DNA from: Bacteroides sp.
GTDB lineage: Bacteria; Bacteroidota; Bacteroidia; Bacteroidales; Bacteroidaceae
DNA: 59,373 nt
Assembly: GCA_017471925.1 (NCBI GenBank)
Contig: JAFURM010000054.1
Coordinates: 1-59,373, forward strand
Direction of reading: 5' to 3'
The translations under genes were made by a program, and so were the position numbers. The stretch's first letter is position 1; each line of letters opens with the position of its first letter. The notes below the pieces were generated by a model. It ran no database searches, was not told where the DNA came from, and saw only the letters and a program-made list of their open reading frames with translations. This document shows positions 52,281 through 53,648 of this stretch, one piece after another.

Positions 52281-53648
52281 TCATCGGGACGAGTGGGTGC
52301 TGAAGTACTTCCACAACGGGGCGGCCATGAGGGATTGTCGCACTTCGTCGTTCATGAGCAGGGCTTTCACCTGGGCTTCACTGAGCAGGTGTACACTGAG
52401 GTCCTCGGTGCTTTCCAGGTGTTGGGTAGAGATTCTCTCCACCTCGGTAGCCAGGAAACAGTGGGTCAGGTTGGTCATGGTGCTGGCGTTGGCACTGATG
52501 GTCATCCAGGGTTGCCACTTGCCGCCTCCATAGCCGGTCTCTTCATATAGTTCGCGTTGGGCAGCGACCAGCGGTTCTTCTCCCTCATCGCAGACACCTG
52601 CGCACAGTTCATAACGGGTCTCTCGTATGCCGTGGCGGTATTGGCGCACCAGTACGAACTTTCCTTCCTTGGTGATGGCGATGGTGTTTACCCAGTCGGG
52701 ATATTCCAGAATGTAGTATTCGGGTATTTCGGCTCCGGTGGGCAGCTTTACATGGTCGCGACGGGCCGTGAGCCAAGGACGACGGATGAGGTATTCACTC
52801 TCCAGCACTTTCCACTTGCGCTCATCAGAGGCAGGCTTCCGGCCGCTTCTGCTTCCTCGCTTCCCCTTCTTGCGTTGCAGGTCTTCCCGATAGCCCTGTA
52901 TCATGGAGGCCGACACAATGCCGGTGGGGACGGCGATGATGGTGTAGCCCAGCAGCATGACAATGGCCGAGAGGAAACGTCCTACGGGGGTGGCCGGAGT
53001 GATGTCACCATAGCCTACGGTGGTCATGGTGACGATGGCCCAGTAGATGCTGTTGGGGATGTTGTTGAATGATGTGCCGGGTTGGTTGCCCTCTACCATA
53101 TACATCAGTGTGCCTATGCTGATGACCAGTATCAGGACAAACAGGAAGAAGACCGAAATCTTGCGGCTGCTGATGTAGAGCGAGGAGAGCAGCAGGTGAC
53201 CCTCGTCTAAGAAGTTGAAGAGCTTGAAAACGCGGAAGACGCGGATGAGACGGAAGGTGCGGATGATGAGCAGGTAGCGTGCCGGCCCGAAGAGCCAGGT
53301 GATGTAGAAGGGCAGTGTGGCCAGCAGGTCAACGATGCCGAAGAAGCTCAGGGCATATTGCTTGGGCTTGGGCGAGCAGTAGAGCCGCAACAGATACTCT
53401 ATCGTGAAGAAGGCGGTGAAGGTGTACTCCAGTATGCGCAGATGAGGACCTATGAAGGCGGCCCAACTCTGTATGCTCTCGGCCACGACCACCAGTATGC
53501 TCAGCAGGATGAAGAGCATGAGGGCCACGTCGAAGAGTTTGCCCATCGGGGTGTCGCTTTCGAATATGATGACATATATCTTCCTTTTCAGCGCTTCGTT
53601 GTGCATCAGCCGATGCCAGGCGGCTTTCCATTTTCCGAATAGTTTCAT
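52281..53648 (-). CDS. Voltage-gated potassium channel fused to a Nudix hydrolase
   Basis: One unbroken 455-residue frame joins two proteins. Residues 1-260 form a six-helix Kv-like channel: S4 with regularly spaced Arg (R130, R133, R136, R139), a pore helix and the selectivity filter TVGYGD at 210-215. After a basic linker (258-275) comes a Nudix domain with a complete box at 351-373 (G351, E357, R365-E366, E369-E370, G372), most like ADP-ribose pyrophosphatases (VRQYRHG, ELCAG). The inner-membrane channel could thus be controlled by, or degrade, a nucleotide such as ADP-ribose. No start codon suits a separate Nudix gene. Confidence 0.9.
   Translation of the reverse strand: MKLFGKWKAAWHRLMHNEALKRKIYVIIFESDTPMGKLFDVALMLFILLSILVVVAESIQSWAAFIGPHLRILEYTFTAFFTIEYLLRLYCSPKPKQYALSFFGIVDLLATLPFYITWLFGPARYLLIIRTFRLIRVFRVFKLFNFLDEGHLLLSSLYISSRKISVFFLFVLILVISIGTLMYMVEGNQPGTSFNNIPNSIYWAIVTMTTVGYGDITPATPVGRFLSAIVMLLGYTIIAVPTGIVSASMIQGYREDLQRKKGKRGSRSGRKPASDERKWKVLESEYLIRRPWLTARRDHVKLPTGAEIPEYYILEYPDWVNTIAITKEGKFVLVRQYRHGIRETRYELCAGVCDEGEEPLVAAQRELYEETGYGGGKWQPWMTISANASTMTNLTHCFLATEVERISTQHLESTEDLSVHLLSEAQVKALLMNDEVRQSLMAAPLWKYFSTHSSR

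Follow-up and report, generated by a model that had tools for sequence, protein, structure and literature searches.

A Kv-type potassium channel joined to an apparently intact Nudix hydrolase domain in a group of Bacteroides genomes

Bacterial K+ channels usually carry their regulatory domains in the C-terminal cytoplasmic tail. An ion channel followed by a Nudix domain is familiar from TRPM2 of animals and choanoflagellates, a cation channel that leads into a cytoplasmic C-terminal Nudix domain (NUDT9-H). The choanoflagellate TRPM2 chanzyme is described as opening on ADP-ribose and hydrolyzing ADP-ribose slowly (PMC11479946), and human TRPM2 is described as catalytically inactive (PMC6461439). 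Among bacteria, the K+ channel GsuK is reported to be activated by ADP and NAD+ (PMC3510474), and it has a cytoplasmic domain that answers ADP-type nucleotides below the pore. Here we describe a gene, lying in a 59,373-nucleotide stretch of DNA from Bacteroides sp. (the window), that encodes a channel-Nudix protein conserved in one bacterial group. A search of open-licence PMC, outside which subscription papers and preprints mostly lie, found no literature on a bacterial channel-Nudix protein. As far as found, the layout of a channel followed by a Nudix domain is known in eukaryotes, and the Kv class of the channel, the class of the Nudix domain, and the bacterial host are new to it.

The gene occupies positions 52281 to 53648 of the window on the minus strand, as a single uninterrupted frame of 455 codons with no internal stop, closed by TGA; the plus strand across the same positions contains stops. 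The preliminary description of this DNA had proposed one continuous protein consisting of a complete Kv-type channel and a Nudix domain with an intact box, and the translation bears this out at the coordinates given, on the minus strand. The channel domain, with its transmembrane helices and pore, spans residues 34 to 250 (52899 to 53549, minus strand), as placed by an AlphaFold2 model and by a match to Pfam Ion_trans at residues 37 to 250 (E value of 1.6e-35; 122.9 bits against a cut-off of 25). In a search of PDB sequences the nearest solved channel was Kv2.1 (2e-30), and the prokaryotic channel 1orq, which we take to be KvAP, matched at 2e-21. Alignment with Kv2.1 places the S4 voltage-sensor helix at residues 124 to 142 (53223 to 53279, minus strand), where regularly spaced basic residues (R124, R130, R133, R136, R139, and K142) are identical in all seven fused proteins described below, and the selectivity filter TTVGYGD at residues 209 to 215 (53004 to 53024, minus strand), likewise present in all seven. 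Acidic residues E84 in S2 and D107 in S3 align with acidic residues of Kv2.1. Judged by these sequence features, namely, the Ion_trans fold, the TVGYGD K+ filter, the S4 basic residues, and the S2 and S3 acids, the channel half is a Kv-type voltage-gated K+ channel. It has its voltage sensor and pore in common with Kv channels such as Kv2.1 and 1orq but bears a catalytic-looking Nudix domain and gives no Pfam match to a T1 domain.

The Nudix hydrolase domain spans residues 277 to 455 (52284 to 52820, minus strand) and matches Pfam NUDIX at residues 323 to 429 (E value of 6.4e-12; 46.1 bits against a cut-off of 21.1). The Nudix box at residues 351 to 373 (52530 to 52598, minus strand) agrees with the full pattern G-x5-E-x7-RE-U-x-EE-x-G-U. 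Residues G351, R365, E366, E369, E370, G372, and E415 are invariant in all 55 rows of an alignment of 3 fused and 52 of 76 standalone Nudix sequences, of which 52 have either E or D at position 357, and the same catalytic residues are present in each of the seven fused proteins. E415 (52404 to 52406, minus strand), a predicted catalytic-loop Glu outside the box, aligns with E140 of Bdellovibrio Bd3179 in alignments to PDB sequences; E140 is described as a loop residue, and its Gln mutant was crystallized with ADP-ribose (PMC4629899). With a complete box and this outside Glu, the domain is apparently an intact Nudix hydrolase. The 25 PDB sequences that match the Nudix half at an E value of 0.001 or better comprise bacterial ADP-ribose and NDP-sugar hydrolases, NudK, and human NUDT5. 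An AlphaFold2 model of the Nudix half (pLDDT of 96) gave Foldseek TM scores by query of 0.86 to 0.88 to 5c7q, 5c7t, and 1mqw over 178 to 180 columns and of 0.82 to 1vhz, and this modeled fold, a class assignment made on a single chain, is that of the dimeric ADP-ribose/NDP-sugar/ADP-compound hydrolases.

Members of that class (Bd3179, 5c7q; 2yvm; MT-ADPRase, 1mqw; the ADP compounds hydrolase 1vhz; and NudE) resemble the fused protein in fold (TM by query of 0.82 to 0.88), box, and loop Glu, but the fused protein has a channel attached and differs at two positions diagnostic of substrate. According to the study of Bd3179, the mark of ADP-ribose hydrolases is a proline that follows the Nudix box by about 15 residues, and NDP-sugar hydrolases have Asp-x-Lys where the last helix starts (PMC4629899). 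The marker-proline position, located from PDB-sequence alignments, is Ala in the window protein (A388) and in all seven fused proteins; among the 55 aligned rows it is Pro in 37 and Ala in 11. The standalone Nudix enzymes of Phocaeicola massiliensis and of genome G125 also have Ala here, and the change from Pro to Ala may therefore be independent of the fusion. The Asp-x-Lys motif is missing, residues 437 to 440 being R-Q-S-L, with Q438 invariant in 55 of 55 rows. The best NCBIfam match was the NudE equivalog NF008736, at 54 bits, below its cut-off of 169; NudE is an ADP-compounds hydrolase. The substrate is probably an ADP compound, to judge from these comparisons, and ADP-ribose itself is not established as the substrate, the marker proline being replaced by Ala.

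The preliminary description had likened the protein to TRPM2 in layout and assigned it a different class of pore. Both points agree with our analysis: the channel is followed by a C-terminal Nudix domain, and the TVGYGD filter and the best matches to Kv channels set the pore, together with the S4 voltage sensor, apart from the non-selective TRP-type pore of TRPM2. Only about 33 residues precede S1, leaving no room for the SLOG/MHR1/2 region of TRPM2, to which there is no Pfam match, and no NUDT9 or TRPM2 chain is among the 25 PDB sequences found with the Nudix half. By the three features of N-terminal region, pore, and nearest Nudix relatives, the fused protein is classed as distinct from TRPM2, and we read the likeness as a convergent analogy of layout and not as kinship. 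The protein may nonetheless work like TRPM2. It is likened to GsuK by its predicted role, although GsuK has RCK domains and is not known to have a Nudix hydrolase or a voltage sensor.

A search of related genomes for both domains in one protein, as the preliminary description had suggested, was positive. Among 158 same-genus genomes, 109 gave a match at an E value of 1e-20, and seven (the window's own and G011, G150, G151, G152, G153, and G154) hold a match to both halves in one open frame without a stop, the six others being 72 to 78% identical to the window copy; in none of the remaining 102 genomes with a match does a match span both halves. In samples of 393 genomes of the order and 395 of the phylum, only the window itself spans both halves among the matches listed, a comparison that could miss a fusion whose halves have diverged. 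None of 146 plasmid records with a match, and none of 29 phage records, contains a single place that covers 80% of the query. As far as searched, the fusion appears confined to one bacterial group. The window's genome is fragmented (59 contigs, 89% complete), as might be expected if an assembly error or frameshift had artificially joined two genes. An assembly error is ruled out by the same fusion in six further genomes at 72 to 78% identity, with flanks that differ except for a set shared by four; two fused copies also occur in the public genome collection (L001 and L002), and the chance of any such artefact is negligible. The arrangement that the preliminary description had named as pointing to an error, with two genes separated by a stop in all close relatives, is contradicted by these six genomes. 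Long Nudix or channel frames (L132 to L143 and L076) were read as candidate further fusions, in a check that left out a few other channel frames, such as one of 398 amino acids in G495; none joins the domains, the extra length being upstream DNA that lacks the other half. An apparent long match in L050 is a permease-like frame beside a Nudix gene.

The suggestion that related genomes might carry the two as separate neighboring genes stood in one respect and fell in the other: the halves are separate in other same-genus genomes, but they are adjacent in none of the 11 genomes that have both on one contig. Nine of these pairs lie about 0.8 Mb or more apart by contig coordinates, and in G085 and G094 the distances are 11 and 19 kb, with the Nudix gene upstream of the channel gene. 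The absence of adjacency implies that the fusion did not arise by simple loss of a stop between such neighbors. The nearest separate versions are those of P. massiliensis, with a channel 77.7% and a Nudix hydrolase 82.8% identical, on different records labeled plasmids; G010 has a channel 77% identical, and the Nudix hydrolase of G125, like that of P. massiliensis (L145), is about 83% identical to the fused Nudix part but is a separate gene. In the seven fused genomes, whose completeness of 73 to 99% leaves gaps that could hide copies, no separate channel homologue was found at an E value of 0.001, and the only other Nudix relative is in G011 (52% identity), suggesting that the fused gene stands in for both single genes.

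Unfused Bacteroidota Kv channels (G010, L062; P. massiliensis, L144; and L003) are 69 to 78% identical in the channel part and end in a zinc ribbon, where the fused protein ends in the Nudix domain. A C-terminal zinc ribbon (Cys-x2-Cys ... Cys-x2-Cys after S6) is present in 42 of 43 distinct unfused channel rows, the exception being L124 (a narrower pattern counted 41 of 42), and in none of the seven fused proteins. A short zinc ribbon right after S6 is the usual end of Bacteroidota Kv channels in this family, as in L062, L063, L144, and L003. In the five rows scanned, Pfam gave weak matches to Zn_ribbon_3, DZR, and DUF7575, below the curated cut-offs. The Nudix domain occupies the place of a small cytoplasmic tail, presumably metal binding, that is normal in the family. 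Open-licence PMC yielded no literature on a zinc-ribbon tail of such Kv channels; the one paper that came up concerns another domain, SHOCT. Together, these data suggest that zinc ribbon and Nudix domain can be exchanged at the tail position in a Kv family for which we found no literature. The replacement of a small metal-binding tail would suit a module for assembly or stability, in which the Nudix domain mainly took over the structural role of the zinc ribbon, its dimer contacts aiding the tetramer and its enzyme activity being incidental, and the nearest solved relative, Bd3179, is described as dimeric, with swapped domains and an extensive interface (PMC4629899). A scaffold, however, would not need catalytic residues that are fully conserved in all seven fused proteins, and we regard such a module as improbable.

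Pairwise dN/dS values (NG86) among the seven fused genes were 0.03 to 0.32 for the channel half, in all 21 pairs, and 0.05 to 0.25 for the Nudix half, in the 14 pairs that remained after 7 without a computable dS; the ratios are rough, many dS values being near or above 1. They indicate that both halves are constrained, under purifying selection. The two halves differ in their trees. In the channel tree, the window's half pairs with that of the fused G011 (98/83 in a first tree set and 92/85 in a second); in the Nudix tree, it groups with the standalone enzymes of P. massiliensis and G125 (100/91 and 90/81), apart from the six other fused Nudix domains, which form a weak group in the first set (92/84) and are unresolved among Prevotellaceae rows in the second. 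In the first channel tree, the fused group also takes in the zinc-ribbon channels of P. massiliensis and G010, with modest support (85/86 and 87/78). Bootstrap trees with one fused group made up 0% for both Nudix and channel in the first set and 0% for Nudix and 9% for channel in the second, and an AU test on a single fused clade in the second set did not reject it (P = 0.215 for Nudix and 0.242 for channel). With these mixed results, one fusion followed by exchange or loss is a possible origin, and two fusions are another.

The preliminary description had also tied the gene to nearby defence genes, a connection that did not survive comparison with the other loci. Near the window copy are a type III restriction-modification pair (44421 to 49233), a PD-(D/E)XK nuclease, and an efflux operon that has decayed. 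The fused loci of G150, G151, G152, and G154 have PGK, a porin-like protein, and a TPR protein as neighbors, and where neighbors were scanned at other fused loci, their Pfam labels point to housekeeping functions, porins, TPR proteins, transport, and the like. No neighbor common to all seven fused loci was found, and none of the other scanned loci showed restriction-modification neighbors. PADLOC, run on three neighbors from other fused loci, gave nothing for two and a weak match for NudC to PDC-S07 (1.7e-07), to which the fused protein itself scores only 0.00058. We therefore rejected the defence neighborhood as evidence of function, the restriction-modification genes being missing at the other scanned loci.

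Several further features of these neighborhoods were recorded. The nuclease (PDDEXK_13/REase-ARP) adjoins the restriction-modification pair on the opposite strand (43060 to 49233), and an AAA_14/DUF4143 ATPase at 49917 to 51161 matches the PADLOC candidate PDC-S01 at 2.3e-103. Beside the fused gene, at 53738 to 55374 on the minus strand, lie remnants of an RND-type efflux operon: one of 88 amino acids corresponds to positions 1 to 75 of AcrB-type pumps (2.7e-08), an adaptor piece matches HlyD-type domains below the cut-off, and an outer-membrane piece matches weakly. A conserved channel locus, in which these remnants would correspond to the RND operon beside the unfused channels of G085, G094, and G007, was unsupported by tblastn at 1e-8. 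The TPR protein is directly upstream of the fused gene in four of the seven genomes (L103, L104, L105, and L106); relative to the L103 copies, the TPR proteins are 25 to 48% identical, the porin-like genes 83 to 89%, and PGK 94 to 99%, making the TPR protein, by sequence, a fast-changing neighbor. In G011, a gene for the NADH pyrophosphatase NudC (L102, 5172 to 6011) precedes the fused gene at a distance of 22 bp. NudC also lies 3.3 kb from the unfused channel in L003 (10171 to 10914) and 1.1 kb from that in L117 (8981 to 9766), and in the window it is 16.5 kb from the fused gene (35018 to 35773), proximities that may be due to chance.

Between the two domains lies a linker, residues 251 to 276 (52821 to 52898, minus strand), at the position of the zinc ribbon of the unfused homologues. 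Among the seven fused proteins it is variable in length, with a mean pairwise amino acid identity of 20%. In a full-length AlphaFold2 monomer model (mean pLDDT of 89.7), S6 is helical to residue 265, pLDDT falls below 50 at residues 266 to 272, and the Nudix sheet starts at residue 280. Foldseek recovered both the Nudix and the Kv folds from this model, and its pTM of 0.53 means that the relative position of the two domains is not fixed by it.

Our favored reading, to which we give a probability of roughly 0.4, is that the protein is a nucleotide-responsive K+ channel that hydrolyzes its own ligand; we infer the ligand, the catalysis, the coupling, the tetramer arrangement, and the order of events. 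The C-terminal zinc ribbon of a Bacteroidota Kv-type K+ channel gene would have been lost, and a standalone Nudix gene that already existed, one of the dimeric ADP-ribose/ADP-compound hydrolases, would have been joined in frame to the channel gene. The Nudix domain of each subunit would begin about 15 residues past the modeled end of S6, and a tetramer would hold four of them, perhaps as two dimers, forming a nucleotide-responsive cytoplasmic domain close beneath the S6 gate. The opening of the voltage-gated pore would shift when an ADP-X compound (ADP-ribose, NADH, ApnA, or similar) is bound, and hydrolysis of that compound would end the signal, as is described for choanoflagellate TRPM2 (PMC11479946). 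We take as the best clue to a nucleotide response that an intact hydrolase of nucleotides stands in for a cytoplasmic tail domain just under the S6 gate. Conservation of the fusion in 7 of 158 genomes, invariant catalytic residues, constraint on both halves, the short step from the S6 helix to the Nudix sheet, and the precedents of TRPM2 and GsuK speak for this reading. Against it stand the variable linker, whose identity of about 20% disfavors a rigid mechanical link, the pTM of 0.53, Ala at the marker-proline position, and the lack of a common nucleotide-signal neighbor; it is mainly the flexibility of the linker, the uncertainty in how the domains are placed, and the absence of the proline that call for caution.

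Nearly as likely as a nucleotide-responsive channel is a tethered enzyme that does no gating, the channel and the Nudix domain working independently and the fusion only putting an ADP-compound hydrolase at the membrane or fixing the ratio of the two. The variable, poorly conserved linker, the lack of a confident placement of the domains against each other in the model, and the occurrence of both domains as separate genes elsewhere in the genus would all suit such a passenger, but the Nudix domain sits exactly where relatives carry another cytoplasmic tail domain, and the two genes are non-adjacent in 11 of 11 same-contig pairs, with no sign there of an earlier shared operon. Coupling might also run in reverse, with membrane potential or K+ flux controlling the Nudix domain and the energy state being reported through ADP-compound breakdown. 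A complete voltage sensor joined to a complete enzyme would fit this idea, yet a pure sensor would not need the conserved filter and pore, and the linker is flexible, so that we consider it very unlikely. The fullest form of the favored reading, that of a nucleotide-responsive channel, would be an independently evolved prokaryotic voltage-gated K+ channel-enzyme in which an ADP-ribose-like ligand opens or closes the pore and the same domain slowly destroys that ligand, a self-resetting link from NAD or ADP-compound stress to membrane potential; this specific version is doubtful.

If the coupling is real, the combination of a channel with a Nudix domain would have arisen at least twice, in animals and choanoflagellates and in Bacteroidaceae, in unrelated channels, and the joining of an ADP-compound hydrolase to an ion channel would be a good general design. 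With its 455 residues, the bacterial version is likely to be simpler than TRPM2 to purify and mutate, and it would offer a direct test bed for the link between hydrolysis and gating. Even if gating plays no part, the protein would represent a Nudix enzyme that is tethered to the membrane and conserved throughout a bacterial group.
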